A stretch of 64,000 bases of DNA from Parasutterella secunda (GTDB lineage Bacteria > Pseudomonadota > Gammaproteobacteria > Burkholderiales > Burkholderiaceae_F), in NCBI RefSeq assembly GCF_023336895.1, contig NZ_JAMBLT010000001.1:310001-374000 (forward strand), written 5' to 3'. Positions 27,277-33,646 of the stretch are shown in pieces (position 1 is the first letter of the stretch; every line of letters begins with the position of its first letter). Below the pieces are notes generated by a model. That model was not told the origin of the DNA, ran no database searches, and saw only the letters and a list, made by a program, of their open reading frames with translations. The translations under genes were made by a program, and so were the position numbers.

Positions 27277-28572
27277 ATGGCTGAACACGACAAATTATTA
27301 CCGGATTGGATGATCGGATTAACCGACCGCATCATGAAGTACTACATTGACCGAGAACTCAATGTGGAGCCGACCATATTGGATCGGCATCCTGCTCCGC
27401 AGGAAGGTCATCAGTACATGATGTATGCCCATATTCCGTTTTGCCATACGTTGTGTTCTTATTGCACTTTTCACCGCTTTATTTTTAAAGAATACAAAGC
27501 TCGTGAGTATTTTGTAAGTCTGCGCAAAGAAATGCAGATGGCCCGTGATATGGGGTATGACTTCACGTCTATGTATATCGGCGGCGGTACAACAACCATT
27601 CTCGAGGATGAGCTCATTAAAACTATTGAACTGGCGCGCAAGCTCTTTCCGTCCATGAAAGAAGTTTCCTGCGAAACAGATCCTGCACACCTTGCCACTG
27701 AAAGCTTCAAACATTTGAAGGGACTTGTGGACCGTATGTCGGTCGGCGTTCAAAGTTTTGATGACAATATCCTTAAAATGATCGACCGCTACGAAAAGTT
27801 TGGCAGCGGTGAACAAATTTTCGAACGCATTCAGGCCGCTCAGGAACTCTTCCCGATCATGAATGTTGACATGATTTTCGGGTTCAGAGGACAAACCGAG
27901 GAAATTCTTCAGCGCGATGTGGACTTGCTGATGAAGTTAAATCCTCGTCAAATTACGACCTATCCTTTGATGGTTACCACGCAAACCAAAGCCAGCGTCC
28001 GCAACACCATCGCTGCTCCGAGCGCCGATCTTGCTGCACAGTACCGCATCATCCTGGATACGTTAGGCAAAAACTACAATCAGCTGACATCCTGGACCTT
28101 CGGCCGCTCTCACGATGAAGGTTTCGATGAGTATGTCGTTGACCATGATGAATATCTGGGTTTAGGTTCCGGCGCCTTTAGCTTCCTTGGAGACTCTTTA
28201 TACGTCAACACATTCAGCCTTCGCCGCTACAACGAAAGAATCAGCCAAGGCAAAATGGGCGTAGAAAGACGAAAACGCTTCGATAAGCACTCTGTTTTAC
28301 AGTATCGCCTGTTGCTGGGACTTTTTGCAGCGCGTCTGTCCCGCAAATATTTCCGTGATGTGCACGGCGTTGATTTGGATAAGGCGCTCTTTAAGGAAAT
28401 GCTGGGGCTTAAACTGGCAGGCGCCATCAAAGAAAATCCGAGCAATCCGGACAATCTTATCGTGACCGATGCCGGCAAGTTCTTAGGGCTTGTAATGATG
28501 AAAGCTTTTTACTCCGGTATGGATAACGTACGCGCTGAATTGCGCAAACCTCTGTCAAGCATCGACATGTAA
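27277..28572 (+). CDS. HemN/HemW-like radical SAM protein beside the hydrogenase genes
   Basis: Radical SAM enzyme of 431 residues with the cluster motif HIPFCHTLCSYCTFH (CxxxCxxC) near residue 50, then MYIGGGTTTIL, CETDPAHL, RMSVGVQSFDDNILKMIDR and NVDMIFGFRGQT. This is the layout of the coproporphyrinogen oxidase/HemW/HutW group. The C-terminal part (SVLQYRLLLGLFAARLSRKYF) is the HemN-C winged-helix type. It is not HydG or HydE: length and flanks differ. It could act in haem supply for the cytochrome b of the neighbouring hydrogenase, or in another radical reaction; the substrate is unknown. It starts 39 bases after the acyl-CoA ligase. Confidence 0.75.
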   Translation: MAEHDKLLPDWMIGLTDRIMKYYIDRELNVEPTILDRHPAPQEGHQYMMYAHIPFCHTLCSYCTFHRFIFKEYKAREYFVSLRKEMQMARDMGYDFTSMYIGGGTTTILEDELIKTIELARKLFPSMKEVSCETDPAHLATESFKHLKGLVDRMSVGVQSFDDNILKMIDRYEKFGSGEQIFERIQAAQELFPIMNVDMIFGFRGQTEEILQRDVDLLMKLNPRQITTYPLMVTTQTKASVRNTIAAPSADLAAQYRIILDTLGKNYNQLTSWTFGRSHDEGFDEYVVDHDEYLGLGSGAFSFLGDSLYVNTFSLRRYNERISQGKMGVERRKRFDKHSVLQYRLLLGLFAARLSRKYFRDVHGVDLDKALFKEMLGLKLAGAIKENPSNPDNLIVTDAGKFLGLVMMKAFYSGMDNVRAELRKPLSSIDM

Positions 28573-28697
28573 TAAGAGATTTCTACCTCTTATGGGGTAG
28601 TAATTTTTTACCTATTTTTTTATTATTTTTTGTAAAAATTCTTTATAGTTCCACCGTTGTCGGATGGTATGCCGGGACCAAGGCGTGCCTATGACGA

Positions 28698-28761
28698 CAG
28701 GAATTGTACGTACAATCCCTGAGTTTCAAGAGGACCTGTGCACAAGGCACTTGCCACTCAG
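28698..28761 (+). promoter_or_regulatory. palindrome and competing stem in the hydA leader
   Basis: The 227-bp gap before hydA holds a 24-base near-perfect inverted repeat at 28698-28721 whose 14-base core ATTGTACGTACAAT is a perfect palindrome. Its right edge (CTG at 28719) also belongs to CTGAGT 28719-28724, which pairs perfectly with ACTCAG 28756-28761. The palindrome could be an operator for a dimeric regulator, or the two stems could be alternative RNA folds. Upstream lies an AT-rich promoter-like stretch (TATAGT at 28644). No FNR-type TTGAT-N4-ATCAA site is visible. Confidence 0.5.
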
Positions 28762-28799
28762 AGATTCCATTTTTAGTAAATCTTGGGAGAGATTTAAAC

Positions 28800-30155
28800 A
28801 TGTCCAAAACGATTATGGTCAATACGTTTACTCCGCCGCCCAATGCGCACGGAGAAAACGGACCTGAATACGTTGGCAACCTCCGTCGCGGTGAATTGCG
28901 CGGTGTGATCAAGATCAACAAGGACAACTGCGTTGGTTGCGACACATGCCGTAAAGTTTGCCCGGTGCACGCCATCTCCGGTGGTCTGGGTGTTGTCCAC
29001 TCCATCCGTGAAGACGCTTGCTTGGCCTGCGGCCAATGCTTGATCGCTTGCCCCTTCAACGCGATCGAACAAATGAGCTTTGTTGATGAAGTCATGAAGA
29101 TGCTCGATGACCCCAACAAGCTCGTAGTTGCTCACCCGTCTCCTGCCGTTCGTGTTTCCGTCGGTGAAGAATTCGGCGCTAAGGCCGGTGAATTGGTCAC
29201 CGAACAATTCGTGAACGCTTTGGAAAAGGCCGGCTTCACCACCTATGACGTGAACCAATCGGCTGACCAAACCATCATGGAAGAAGGTTTTGAGTTCATC
29301 AACAAGATCCGTTATTGGGTCTTGGGCGAACGCGGCCCTGAACTCGAAGAAGCTGCCAAGCACCCCTTCCCGCATTTCACGAGCTGCTGCCCTGCTTGGG
29401 TTAAGAACGTTGAAACGTTCCACCCGGGCTTGCTGCCCCACTTGTCTACGGCTAAGAGCCCGATTCAGATGGGTGGTCCGGTTGCTAAGACCTGGGCTGC
29501 TGAATACGTTTGGAAGAAAGATCCCCGCGACATTTATGTCGTAGCTGTGACACCTTGCACCGCCAAGATCTTTGAAGCTGCCCGTCCGGAAATGAATGCC
29601 GCCTGGCATCACTTGGTTGAAACCGGCAAGATCCCGGCTAACACCCCCTCTTTCCAAGACGTCGATGCTGTTGTGACGGCTCGCGAAATTGCTGAAATTT
29701 TCCGTCGTAAAGGCATCAATCCGTTGGAAATGCCGAAGACTCGTGAACGCAGCACGATGGAAATCTACACCGGTGCCGGTACCATCTTCGGTGCCTCCGG
29801 CGGTGTGATGGAAGCTGCTTTGCGTACGGCTTACTTTGTGTTGGCTGGCGAAGAATTGAAGGATCCGGATATTAAGATCGTCCGTGGTCATACCGATGCA
29901 GTTGTGGAAGCAACGATTCCTGTGCCCATCAAGAAATTGGGCGGCAAGGTGTTCGAAGTCCGCGTTTGCGTCGTCAATGGTGCTTTGCAAGGCCTCGAAG
30001 GTGTTTTGCGTCGCATCAAGGAAGACAAGAACCGTTATCACTTCATCGAAGTGATGAACTGCCCTGGCGGCTGCGTCAATGGCGGTGGTCAACCGGTTCG
30101 CACTGACAGTGCAACATGGCTAAACCCCACGTTGCCCGTTCCTGTGCAAATTTAA
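28800..30155 (+). CDS. hydA: periplasmic-type [FeFe] hydrogenase large subunit
   Basis: Catalytic subunit that interconverts H2 with protons and electrons. The 451 residues hold an N-terminal 2[4Fe-4S] ferredoxin domain (Cys 44/47/50/54 and 74/77/80/84), then the H-cluster domain. L1 is TSCCPAW (194-200), L2 is TPCTAKIFE (251-259) and L3 is EVMNCPGGCVNGGGQP near 417-432. L2 normally begins MPC, so Thr251 replaces a Met that touches the H-cluster. Proton-path residues Glu161 and Ser220 look kept. There is no signal peptide; export would rely on HydB, as in Desulfovibrio. ATG 28800 follows GGAGAG; the open frame to 28704 is leader. Confidence 0.95.
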   Translation: MSKTIMVNTFTPPPNAHGENGPEYVGNLRRGELRGVIKINKDNCVGCDTCRKVCPVHAISGGLGVVHSIREDACLACGQCLIACPFNAIEQMSFVDEVMKMLDDPNKLVVAHPSPAVRVSVGEEFGAKAGELVTEQFVNALEKAGFTTYDVNQSADQTIMEEGFEFINKIRYWVLGERGPELEEAAKHPFPHFTSCCPAWVKNVETFHPGLLPHLSTAKSPIQMGGPVAKTWAAEYVWKKDPRDIYVVAVTPCTAKIFEAARPEMNAAWHHLVETGKIPANTPSFQDVDAVVTAREIAEIFRRKGINPLEMPKTRERSTMEIYTGAGTIFGASGGVMEAALRTAYFVLAGEELKDPDIKIVRGHTDAVVEATIPVPIKKLGGKVFEVRVCVVNGALQGLEGVLRRIKEDKNRYHFIEVMNCPGGCVNGGGQPVRTDSATWLNPTLPVPVQI

Positions 30156-30172
30156 TTGGATGGAGACAATAA

Positions 30173-30520
30173 ATGCGCAAGTATGAATATACCGAACGAC
30201 AAACCGTTGCTATGCTCGGTCGCCGCGGCTTTTTGAAAGTTGTCGGTGTGACGGCTTTGGCAATTGGTGTCACGGGCTACGCCGTTGTTGACCTCATCCA
30301 ACGTCGCTCTGACGTTATTAAAGCTCGTCAAGCCGGCTTGTACCGTGATGACAAGATTTGCCAAGAAAATGGCCTTACCTGTTCTCACCAGAACAAGTCT
30401 GTGTTGCGTTTTTATGCTGACATGCACACGCAACCGGCCACCGGTGAATTGGCTCACCACCTGTTGCATACCCGCTACTATCCGCGTACGCAATTAGCGG
30501 CTTTGGGAGGTAAACACTAA
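30173..30520 (+). CDS. hydB: [FeFe] hydrogenase small subunit with Tat signal
   Basis: A 115-residue protein resembling the small subunit of Desulfovibrio periplasmic [FeFe] hydrogenase. It carries a twin-arginine signal GRRGFLKV (residues 16-23) followed by a hydrophobic stretch (VTALAIGVTGYAVVDLI), then a short mature part with YADMHTQPATGELAHHLLHTRYY, matching the LHTH/W-F segment near the end of the Desulfovibrio protein. The Tat signal probably carries the folded HydA across the membrane. GGAGA nine bases before the ATG; the stop overlaps the next start by one base. Confidence 0.88.
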   Translation: MRKYEYTERQTVAMLGRRGFLKVVGVTALAIGVTGYAVVDLIQRRSDVIKARQAGLYRDDKICQENGLTCSHQNKSVLRFYADMHTQPATGELAHHLLHTRYYPRTQLAALGGKH

Positions 30521-31185
30521 TGGCTGAACGTATCTTACGATTCCACCCCGCTGACAAAGTATTCCACGCTGTTAATGCGGTGACGTGGTTTGCATTGCTG
30601 TTCACCGGCGCGGCTGTCTATTTCTGCAACCTCTCCGATGAAACCGCTAACAATTTGATGATTTGGCACATCTGGATTGCCGTTGTGTATACCTTTAACT
30701 TGATCGGTTACTTGGTGTTCGCTCCGCATCGTTTCGCTGCGACGTTGAATGCCTTGTTGACTTGGGATATGGATACGATCAAGTGGTTCCGCAATTTCGG
30801 CGGTTACCCGCGTCGTTTCTTCAAGATCCCGTTCGGTCCGGTTGAAGTTCCGCCGCAAGGTCGTTACAACGGCGGCCAAAAGATGAGCTATCTCATTTTC
30901 TTCTTCATGATGTATGGCCTCGCCGTTACCGGTTGGATGCTTTTCTACTTCGCTCCTGCGATTCCGAAAGGCGCCTTCTGGTGGATGTATATCTTCCATG
31001 TTTGGGGTTCCATCATCTGCTCGTTGATGGTTGTGTGTGCCCACATCCCCTTGGCTTTGCTCTCTTGGGAACATTTCAAGGGCATTTGGGGTCCGGGCGA
31101 AGGCACGATCTCTTACGAAGCTGCCGAACACCACTCTCCGAAGTGGCTTGAAAAGGACGTTATTCGTACAAATCTCGAAAAATAA
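30520..31185 (+). CDS. cytochrome b subunit of the hydrogenase (FdnI-like)
   Basis: Four-helix di-haem cytochrome b of 221 residues, in the family of formate dehydrogenase gamma subunits. Likely haem ligand histidines sit in KVFHAVN (helix 1), MIWHIWIAV (helix 2), and IFHVWGS plus VCAHIPLAL (helix 4). A GPVEVPPQGRYNGGQKMSY loop typical of FdnI-like proteins lies between helices 2 and 3. It would pass electrons between the periplasmic HydAB and membrane quinones, giving an energy-conserving H2:quinone link. The one-base overlap with hydB implies tight co-translation. Confidence 0.9.
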   Translation: MAERILRFHPADKVFHAVNAVTWFALLFTGAAVYFCNLSDETANNLMIWHIWIAVVYTFNLIGYLVFAPHRFAATLNALLTWDMDTIKWFRNFGGYPRRFFKIPFGPVEVPPQGRYNGGQKMSYLIFFFMMYGLAVTGWMLFYFAPAIPKGAFWWMYIFHVWGSIICSLMVVCAHIPLALLSWEHFKGIWGPGEGTISYEAAEHHSPKWLEKDVIRTNLEK

Positions 31186-31221
31186 TTTGTACAAAAGTAT
31201 CTTTTTGATACACGTCTGATT

Positions 31222-31257
31222 AAAAGGGATTCGCTATCATTAGGCGAGTCCCTTTTT
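31222..31257 (+). terminator. terminator between hydC and hydF
   Basis: A 13-bp stem (AAAAGGGATTCGC / GCGAGTCCCTTTT, one G-T pair), nine-base loop, and a T run. It separates the three structural hydrogenase genes from the two maturase genes and should lower maturase expression relative to hydABC. Confidence 0.88.
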
Positions 31258-31277
31258 GCTTATTAGGAATCAATATC

Positions 31278-32522
31278 ATGGCAACCAGCCGCATGGAAAC
31301 CCCGAAAGGCCTTCGCCTGCACTTTGGCTTATTTGGAAAACGAAATGCCGGGAAATCCTCCCTTATTAACGCCCTAGCCAACCAAAATATTTCTATTGTG
31401 AGCAGCGTTGCTGGAACAACAACCGATCCGGTTGAAAAAGCCTTTGAATTGTCTCCCATTGGGCCAGTTGTTTTCATGGACACGGCCGGTATCGATGATG
31501 AGGGGGATCTGGGACTGGCTCGCGTGGAGAAAAGTCTGTCTGTTTTGGAATGGATGGATATCGCCATTGTTGTTTGCGAAGCGGGAACTTGGGGAAGTCA
31601 CGAAGAAAATATTCTGAAAAAAACTTTAAATAACGGCACTCCCACCATTGTTGTTTTTAATAAGACCGATCTGTGCAAACCCACTAAAGAACACGTACAG
31701 GCTCTTCGCTCTCGAGGTTATAAAGTCATAGAAACCAGCGCCGCCAATCGTGAAGGTATTTCCGATTTGCGTGATGCCATCATTCAGACAGTATTGGAAA
31801 AAACCGAACCGGACCGCCCCCTAATGGGAGAATTGGCAAAGGCAGGAGACACGGTTTTACTGGTTACACCGATTGACACCGGAGCTCCGAAAGGACGTTT
31901 AATCCTGCCTCAAGTACAAGCCATTCGCGAGTTGCTTGATGCCGGCGCCAAATGCTTTGTCATCAAGGAAGATCGAATTACCGAAACGCTTAACGAGCTT
32001 AAGCAGCCTCCTCAGCTAGTTGTCACAGACAGCCAAGTTGTTTTACGTGTTGTAAAGGAAGTTCCCGAACCTATTCCCGTTACAACTTTTTCTATCCAAA
32101 TGGCTTATTCAAAAAGTGATCTTTTAGAAATGGCCATTGGTGCCGCGGCACTGACAAAGTTGAAACCGGGGGACAAAGTTTTAATTGCTGAAACATGCTC
32201 GCATCATCCGTTAAAAGATGATATCGGTCGGGTAAAAATCCCCAATTGGTTAAGAAAAACTTTTGGCGATTTAAATATTGACATTGCTGTTGGTAAGGAT
32301 TTTCCCACGGATTTGACGCCTTACAAAGTCATCATTCAGTGTGGAGGCTGCATTGTTACGCGCCGGCACATGTTAGCTCGTTTGCGCCAAGCCAAAGCGC
32401 AAGGTGTTCCCATGACAAACTATGGAGTCACGATTTCCTATTTACAAGGGGTGTTGCCGCGGGTGTTGGCTTGTCATCCCGATGCTAAAGCTGCCTTCGA
32501 CCAAGCATTGAAAACGCTCTAA
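31278..32522 (+). CDS. hydF: [FeFe] hydrogenase maturation GTPase/scaffold HydF
   Basis: Scaffold that assembles the 2Fe subcluster and delivers it to HydA. At 414 residues it has an N-terminal Ras-like GTPase domain (GKRNAGKSSL at 20-29, SSVAGTTTDPV, DTAGIDDEGDLG, NKTDL), a dimerisation domain, and a C-terminal cluster-binding domain with the ligand set ETCSHHPL ... QCGGCIVTRR (CxH and CGGC). AGGA lies nine bases before the ATG. It follows the hydC terminator and runs into hydE with an 11-base gap. Confidence 0.95.
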   Translation: MATSRMETPKGLRLHFGLFGKRNAGKSSLINALANQNISIVSSVAGTTTDPVEKAFELSPIGPVVFMDTAGIDDEGDLGLARVEKSLSVLEWMDIAIVVCEAGTWGSHEENILKKTLNNGTPTIVVFNKTDLCKPTKEHVQALRSRGYKVIETSAANREGISDLRDAIIQTVLEKTEPDRPLMGELAKAGDTVLLVTPIDTGAPKGRLILPQVQAIRELLDAGAKCFVIKEDRITETLNELKQPPQLVVTDSQVVLRVVKEVPEPIPVTTFSIQMAYSKSDLLEMAIGAAALTKLKPGDKVLIAETCSHHPLKDDIGRVKIPNWLRKTFGDLNIDIAVGKDFPTDLTPYKVIIQCGGCIVTRRHMLARLRQAKAQGVPMTNYGVTISYLQGVLPRVLACHPDAKAAFDQALKTL

Positions 32523-32533
32523 GGATCATATTC

Positions 32534-33646
32534 ATGAAAAGCATCACCGAGATCGTTAAACAAACTGAATTTTCCGACGAGGATATTGTTCGTTTACTGG
32601 CAATAACTGACCCAACGGAAGCGGAAATTTTGCGACAAGCCGCCTATGACAGAGCAACTCATACGGTTGGCAACAATGTTTACTATCGGGGACTTATTGA
32701 ATTTTCCAATATCTGTACGCTGGACTGCCGTTACTGTGGGATACGTAAATCCAATCATGCTGTCCCCCGTTATGAGCTAGATAAAGAGACGATTGTCAAT
32801 GCGGCTCTTTGGGCGGCCACCAACCACTACGGTTCAATCTGTCTGCAATCGGGCGAGCGTCGGGATCCCAAATTTATCGCTTTCGTCACAGATGTTTTAA
32901 AAACTATTCACGAGAAAACGGTTAGCCCTGAATTACCCAATGGTCTCGGAATTACTCTTTCTTTAGGTGAGCAGAGCTTTGAGGTTTACAAGCAATGGGC
33001 TCAAGCGAGTGGAAATCCTATTGGCTTACGTTATCTACTGCGATTTGAAACATCCAACCCCAAATTATTCGATCACCTGCATCACGCTCCGGGACGCGAA
33101 AAAGCGCTTCAGAGACGCTATCAAGCATTGGCAGATCTGCGCCGTGCAGGCTATCAAGTTGGCTCAGGTGTCATGATTGGCATCCCTGGGCAAACATTGC
33201 AAGACCTCTGTCAAGATATACGTACGTTCCAAAAATTAGACCTGGATATGATCGGAATGGGGCCCTATATCACTAGCGAAGGCGGTGATATGTTGGGCGA
33301 AGGTATGATGGAAGAAAAAGCATTAATGCGACTTTCTCTTAATATGATCGCTACTACACGGCTTGTTATTCCTGATATTAATATCGCAGCCGCTACGGCT
33401 TTGCACGCTCTAGAAGAAAACGGTCGAGAAAAAGGTATCTTACACGGCTGTAATGTCATCATGCCTAACATTACGCCTAGAATCGTTCGGAAAAATTACC
33501 AGCTCTATGCCAATAAGCCTTTTATTGAACAAGAGCCTAGCGATACCAATCTATACCTGCAGCAAAGCATTCAAAAAACCGGACGAACGGTCGCTTTGAA
33601 TGTCTTGGGAAGTTCTAAACATTGGAAGCTTAGAACGGGACTTTAA
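32534..33646 (+). CDS. hydE: [FeFe] hydrogenase maturation radical SAM enzyme HydE
   Basis: Radical SAM maturase contributing to the bridging dithiolate of the H-cluster. At 370 residues it has the cluster motif FSNICTLDCRYCGIR (CxxxCxxC near residue 60), ICLQSGERRD, GLRYLLRFETSNPKLF, GVMIGIPGQTLQDL and MGPYITSEGGDML, all HydE rather than HydG or BioB. The C-terminal cysteines that hold a second cluster in Thermotoga HydE are missing, as in some other active HydE proteins. AAGGA precedes the ATG. HydG, the third maturase, is not present on either side. Confidence 0.95.
   Translation: MKSITEIVKQTEFSDEDIVRLLAITDPTEAEILRQAAYDRATHTVGNNVYYRGLIEFSNICTLDCRYCGIRKSNHAVPRYELDKETIVNAALWAATNHYGSICLQSGERRDPKFIAFVTDVLKTIHEKTVSPELPNGLGITLSLGEQSFEVYKQWAQASGNPIGLRYLLRFETSNPKLFDHLHHAPGREKALQRRYQALADLRRAGYQVGSGVMIGIPGQTLQDLCQDIRTFQKLDLDMIGMGPYITSEGGDMLGEGMMEEKALMRLSLNMIATTRLVIPDINIAAATALHALEENGREKGILHGCNVIMPNITPRIVRKNYQLYANKPFIEQEPSDTNLYLQQSIQKTGRTVALNVLGSSKHWKLRTGL

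Follow-up and report, generated by a model that had tools for sequence, protein, structure and literature searches.

Which acceptor does an [FeFe] hydrogenase serve when its genes lie beside that of a membrane cytochrome b, and how is its active site built when the adjoining maturation genes include hydE and hydF but not hydG? A gene cluster of Parasutterella secunda raises both questions. It lies in the window analysed here, a 64-kb stretch of contig C1 of the genome (G000), to which coordinates refer unless a contig is named; in our family comparison the genus of this genome is Aphodousia. The probable product of the cluster is a respiratory [FeFe] hydrogenase linked to the membrane, a variant of the Desulfovibrio-type HydAB in which an FdnI-type cytochrome b takes the place of the soluble cytochrome c partner. 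HydG is encoded elsewhere in this genome, on contig C8, and was not detected in three sister genera that keep HydA, HydE and HydF. The features of the locus are as follows.

27277..28572, + strand: HemN/HemW-like radical S-adenosylmethionine (SAM) protein (NF006385, 658 bits against a cut-off of 355)
28632..28799, + strand: 5′ leader of hydA with strong predicted folding, a candidate operator site or cis-regulatory RNA (minimum free energy z = -4.2)
28800..30155, + strand: hydA, large subunit with two [4Fe-4S] clusters and the H-cluster domain (Fe_hyd_lg_C, PF02906, E=3e-68; motifs)
30173..30520, + strand: hydB, small subunit with a twin-arginine signal (Fe_hyd_SSU, PF02256, E=1.7e-14)
30520..31185, + strand: four-helix cytochrome b resembling FdnI, the proposed membrane subunit for quinone reduction (Ni_hydr_CYTB, PF01292, E=3e-13; 1kqf_C)
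31222..31256, + strand: terminator-like hairpin at the boundary of structural and maturase genes (14-pair stem followed by a T run)
31278..32522, + strand: hydF, H-cluster maturation GTPase/scaffold (TIGR03918, 524 bits against a cut-off of 325.6)
32534..33646, + strand: hydE, radical SAM maturase (TIGR03956, 281 bits against a cut-off of 254.6)

The original prediction had placed hydA, a hydB with a twin-arginine translocation (Tat) signal, a four-helix cytochrome b, hydF and hydE in one direction, and family profiles confirm all five on the + strand. Its span of 27277-33646 holds for the hyd genes (28800-33646) but not at its start, where the HemN-like gene, unmentioned there, begins at 27277; this gene is part of the hyd neighbourhood. 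The assignment of HydAB to the Desulfovibrio type, with the Tat signal on the small subunit, agrees with the motifs and with matches to the structure 1hfe, and the likeness of the cytochrome b to FdnI was recovered by both profile and fold.

The closest solved structure to HydA is Desulfovibrio HydA (E=7e-89), and HydB matches 1hfe_S (E=2.7e-5) and was aligned across 17 genomes. The start of HydA was assigned to the ATG at 28800, preceded by GGGAGAG, and its score against TIGR02512 (376) is slightly below the cut-off of 406. HydA has no signal peptide; the Tat motif RRGFLK (GRRGFLKVVG) is found in HydB only. HydA contains TSCCPAW, TPCTAK (not MPC) and MNCPGGCVNGGGQP, and each H-cluster pattern is matched: L1 TSCCPxW by TSCCPAW, L2 xPCxxK by TPCTAK and L3 CxxGCxxGGGQP by CPGGCVNGGGQP. 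The methionine of L2 (MPC) is highly conserved in known [FeFe] enzymes. Most of the family, the window included, has threonine in its place and Mesosutterella has alanine, with methionine only in genome G012; a rubrerythrin-fused HydA of the P. secunda genome is likewise non-methionine (APC). This methionine is a common residue, not a strictly defining one, for [FeFe] group A. No relatives of hydA were found among viruses.

The start codon of the cytochrome b gene overlaps the hydB stop by one base. Its product matches the gamma subunit of formate dehydrogenase-N (1kqf_C) by profile (E=1e-6), and its predicted fold matches the same chain with a template modelling score of about 0.72 (predicted local distance difference test of the model, 78). 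Four histidines are invariant in the family (His16, His50, His160 and His175). Three of them, His16, His160 and His175, align with FdnI His18, His155 and His169; His50 is invariant, yet falls about one helical turn off FdnI in the profile alignment. In FdnI the four corresponding histidines are the heme ligands. A contig scan with this protein, a pattern scan that reaches close relatives only, found close relatives solely in this family. HydF has its dimer and tetramer domains, with the cluster ligands CxH...CGGC in the alignment, and HydE has the motif CTLDCRYC and was aligned with 22 relatives. The HydE of the window is unusually divergent: it is 34-38% identical to the HydE of other phyla, while those are about 50% identical to one another.

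The hydG gene lies outside the window, as had been predicted. A genome-wide search for a HydG of about 470 residues with a C-terminal CxxC site, a check proposed at that time, found an intact protein of 472 amino acids at G000:C8:57659-59071 (850 bits; cut-off 312). This protein carries the radical SAM motif CVNTCTYC and the C-terminal site CxxC-x22-C CTACYRAGRTGDRFMSLAKTGEIATYC. Its gene adjoins no other hyd gene on C8 and, because the window is flanked on C1 by 310 kb on its left and 182 kb on its right, is distant from the cluster. With HydE and HydF in the window and HydG on C8 the HydE/HydF/HydG set is full, and maturation is therefore complete in trans. The separation, presented in the prediction as an oddity, is none for this genome, since hydG is intact here and unlinked in every genome that has it.

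A role as an H2:quinone oxidoreductase, as first proposed for HydAB with the cytochrome b, remains the likely one on the evidence of these genes. We infer that HydAB is exported, forms a complex with the cytochrome b, uses a quinone acceptor and works in the uptake direction. HydE and HydF from the cluster, together with HydG from C8, would build the [2Fe] part of the H-cluster, and HydA would then be exported, folded together with HydB, by means of the HydB Tat signal. In the periplasm HydAB would oxidize H2; the electrons would travel by way of the two HydA [4Fe-4S] clusters to the cytochrome b hemes and from there into the quinone pool. Quinone reduction would feed anaerobic respiration, with protons released outside. 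Such an enzyme would give the gut Sutterellaceae an [FeFe] hydrogenase linked to quinone and, with it, a possible route for using gut H2.

Three points weigh against this respiratory uptake role. The possible terminator between the cytochrome b gene and hydF leaves joint expression uncertain; the catalytic bias may differ because L2 is TPC and not MPC; and another enzyme may account for H2 uptake, a [NiFe] hydrogenase with Hyp genes and two more [FeFe] HydA proteins being encoded in the same genome. The same components could also run in reverse, as a periplasmic H2-evolving valve fed by menaquinol or formate through the cytochrome b when acceptors are exhausted. This we consider unlikely: although [FeFe] hydrogenases mostly favour H2 evolution and a [NiFe] enzyme is available for uptake, H2 formation from menaquinol is strongly uphill unless reverse electron flow drives it, and the Desulfovibrio HydAB, the closest structural relatives, are classed as uptake enzymes. 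The HydA of Shewanella, on the side of the valve, is described as H2-forming (PMC12410911). It is highly improbable that the enzyme is non-functional, or a sensor, with incomplete maturation. The unlinked hydG and the TPC form of L2 would fit such a protein, but the genome encodes an intact HydG and intact redox subunits, HydA has no sensor domain, and the ratio of non-synonymous to synonymous substitution rates (dN/dS) of hydA in the genus of the window is 0.03-0.04.

The set had been called unusual for a betaproteobacterium, which is not supported within this family: the same genes recur in Sutterella, Duodenibacillus, Parasutterella, Turicimonas, Mesosutterella and Aphodousia, and the cluster layout is standard for gut Sutterellaceae. 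The comparison of gene order across the family that had been suggested showed hydA, hydB and the cytochrome b gene in the same order in all genera examined, and several sister genera without any detected hydG. The longer order hemN-like, hydA, hydB, cytochrome b, hydF is common to Aphodousia, Duodenibacillus, Sutterella, Parasutterella and Turicimonas; in Mesosutterella the gene set is unchanged but the hemN-like gene lies elsewhere. Among 67 genomes of the family, [FeFe] HydA was found in 43, HydF above cut-off in 41 and HydG above cut-off in 28. Where HydG is present its gene is unlinked, with neighbours that vary by species, and in single-contig relatives it lies 0.6-1.0 Mb from hydF.

HydG was above cut-off in none of ten genomes of Mesosutterella (five), Parasutterella (three) and Turicimonas (two, including T. 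muris YL45), which are 94-100% complete, one of them in two contigs and one in three. All ten encode at least one [FeFe] HydA together with HydF and HydE. A search of the same ten genomes for the BATS domain gave nothing above cut-off, and thus no HydG, ThiH or BioB. Assembly gaps are ruled out by absence from 10/10 genomes in three genera at this completeness (a chance of about 1e-19 if gaps are independent). An overlooked divergent homologue was sought in Mesosutterella G045 and Turicimonas G063, which together encode 31 radical SAM proteins; the 30 that were read, all but one partial match in G045, included none that was HydG-like, those unclear by motif being HutW, MoaA, RlmN-like and four without a strong family match. 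A plasmid-borne hydG was also rejected, the plasmid search giving distant relatives only. Rechecking of named records found no HydG in T. muris YL45, P. muris and M. porci, and full-length HydG in the controls S. wadsworthensis, D. massiliensis and P. secunda. Negatives in G011, G012, G014, G034 and G058 are less certain (80-96% complete).

In the HydG-less genera the motifs of HydA, HydB, cytochrome b, HydF and HydE are intact. Pairwise dN/dS lay at 0.08-0.24 in hydA (Mesosutterella pairs only), 0.12-0.35 in hydF and 0.13-0.27 in hydE, with several pairs saturated at synonymous sites; where testable, these low values point to purifying selection, and hence to maintenance of the three genes. 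Periplasmic HydA was not found in G044, G045, G048 and G050, which retain a HydA of the NAD(P)-linked type. HypF and a [NiFe] hydrogenase, whose CN and CO ligands are products of the Hyp pathway, occur in the HydG-less genomes tested. Absence of HydG is not marked by the Hyp genes, HypF being present in nearly all genomes of the family; because HydG-positive genomes have Hyp too, the pathway is a lead and not a correlate.

Two readings of these genera can be set side by side. Tentatively, Mesosutterella, Parasutterella and Turicimonas may build active [FeFe] hydrogenases by means of HydE and HydF in the absence of HydG, taking CO and CN from an unknown maturase, from the Hyp pathway, or from scavenged CO or cyanide. 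A published experiment cited in PMC9431212 gave about 1% activation with HydE and HydF alone, and more with free CO or cyanide. Equally, it is conceivable, though we would not assert it, that their [FeFe] enzymes are not built into active hydrogenases and that hydE and hydF serve another role or are near loss. Cell-free work traces all five CO and CN ligands to tyrosine, which is the HydG route (PMC3105041); no candidate replacement for HydG was found among the BATS-domain and radical SAM proteins searched; and some genomes of these genera are down to one HydA. Inactivity sits less easily with the intact active-site motifs of HydA, with dN/dS of 0.12-0.35 for hydE and hydF where estimable, and with the retention of both genes in 10/10 genomes of three genera. 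We found no report of HydG-independent maturation in this family in the open-access literature. HydE, HydF and HydG have been treated as an obligatory trio, and three gut genera without detectable HydG challenge the view that HydG is always needed. As these are common gut genera with HydA, HydE and HydF but no detectable HydG or BATS-domain protein, natural dispensability of HydG can now be asked about in cultured strains.

The HydG proteins of the family form a single clade (support 98/100), consistent with one origin. They are about 70% identical to HydG of gut Bacteroidota and Bacillota as against about 49% to other gammaproteobacterial HydG. Lateral transfer is not required by these figures and slow evolution explains much of them, because Monoglobus and Bacteroides HydG are also 77% identical. 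HydG is rare in the class (5/369); ProPhylo counts HydF in 200 genomes, HydE in 189 and HydG in 179 (PMC3226654). On the structural-gene tree HydG presence needs three changes. Loss in the ancestor of the three genera and late gain by the others are indistinguishable. The structural genes of G033 group with those of Parasutterella and Turicimonas while its HydG groups with Duodenibacillus HydG (94/95), a mismatch that hints at regain. A second HydG-like gene of G033, considered as HydG, is ThiH and lies in a thiamine cluster.

In seven species the hydA leader (28632-28799) folds more strongly than its shuffled versions (z -2.6 to -5.8). The leader is conserved among the species of Aphodousia, with compensatory substitutions in its first hairpin and a hairpin around the ribosome-binding site, and contains the palindrome ATTGTACGTACAAT, which occurs at one site per genome. 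There was no credible Rfam match to the leader, and by eye no such leader was seen upstream of hydA in genera other than Aphodousia. A terminator-like hairpin at 28583-28600 separates the hemN-like gene from hydA and the stronger one at 31222-31256 separates the cytochrome b gene from hydF, so that single-operon status is not established; over the whole region such sites are no more frequent than in shuffled sequence.

The HemN/HemW-like protein has 431 amino acids and belongs to NF006385, 'coproporphyrinogen III oxidase family'. This family is above cut-off in 40/41 HydF-bearing genomes against 1/26 other genomes of the family, a co-occurrence confounded by common descent, and its gene adjoins hydA in each genus examined but Mesosutterella. 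The protein is perhaps concerned with heme handling, as a heme-insertion factor for the hydrogenase cytochrome b. It was rejected as a substitute for HydG, occurring both with and without it.

Elsewhere in the P. secunda genome, a HydA of 682 amino acids is fused to rubrerythrin and a rubredoxin-like domain (L149:6024-8069; C1:45 kb in the genome itself), which suggests H2-driven peroxide reduction. Another HydA, with a NuoG-like N-terminus, stands beside a GltD-like NAD(P)-binding flavoprotein with a NuoF iron-sulfur domain (L150:3741-7599; C5:87 kb); the pair is a probable NAD(P)-linked [FeFe] hydrogenase.

Among known systems, the periplasmic HydAB of Desulfovibrio (1hfe, 8rtg) gives the top PDB match to the large subunit and one of the top two to the small subunit. 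It shares a separate large subunit with two [4Fe-4S] clusters and the H-cluster, and a small subunit bearing the Tat signal. Its partner is a soluble cytochrome c, whereas the window has an FdnI-type cytochrome b directly after hydB; L2 in our family is TPC or APC rather than MPC, and the window HydA is longer between motifs. FdnI (1kqf chain C) shares the four-helix b-type cytochrome fold and the heme histidines, but identity is only about 22%, and the partner in the window, a hydrogenase, has no separate iron-sulfur beta subunit. The periplasmic [FeFe] locus of Shewanella is likewise a proteobacterial HydAB with maturase genes nearby, its order presumably being hydA, hydB, then hydG, hydE and hydF, with a cytochrome b gene, fdhC, between. 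In Shewanella sp. MR-4 the large and small subunits, hydG, hydE and hydF are close together by GenInfo identifier numbers (PMC3226654); hydG is thus in the cluster there, unlike in Sutterellaceae, where it is unlinked or absent. Several Clostridium genomes have HydE and HydF but no standard HydG (PMC9431212); they retain atypical HydG-like radical SAM proteins, whereas in the three Sutterellaceae genera no HydG- or ThiH-like protein was found. The quinone-linked periplasmic [FeFe] hydrogenase of PMC10924467 resembles the enzyme described here in belonging to group A, in Tat export and in its predicted feed to a quinone-reactive membrane protein; it differs in using a HybB-like membrane protein and an extra (C-tail) iron-sulfur subunit in place of an FdnI-like cytochrome b.

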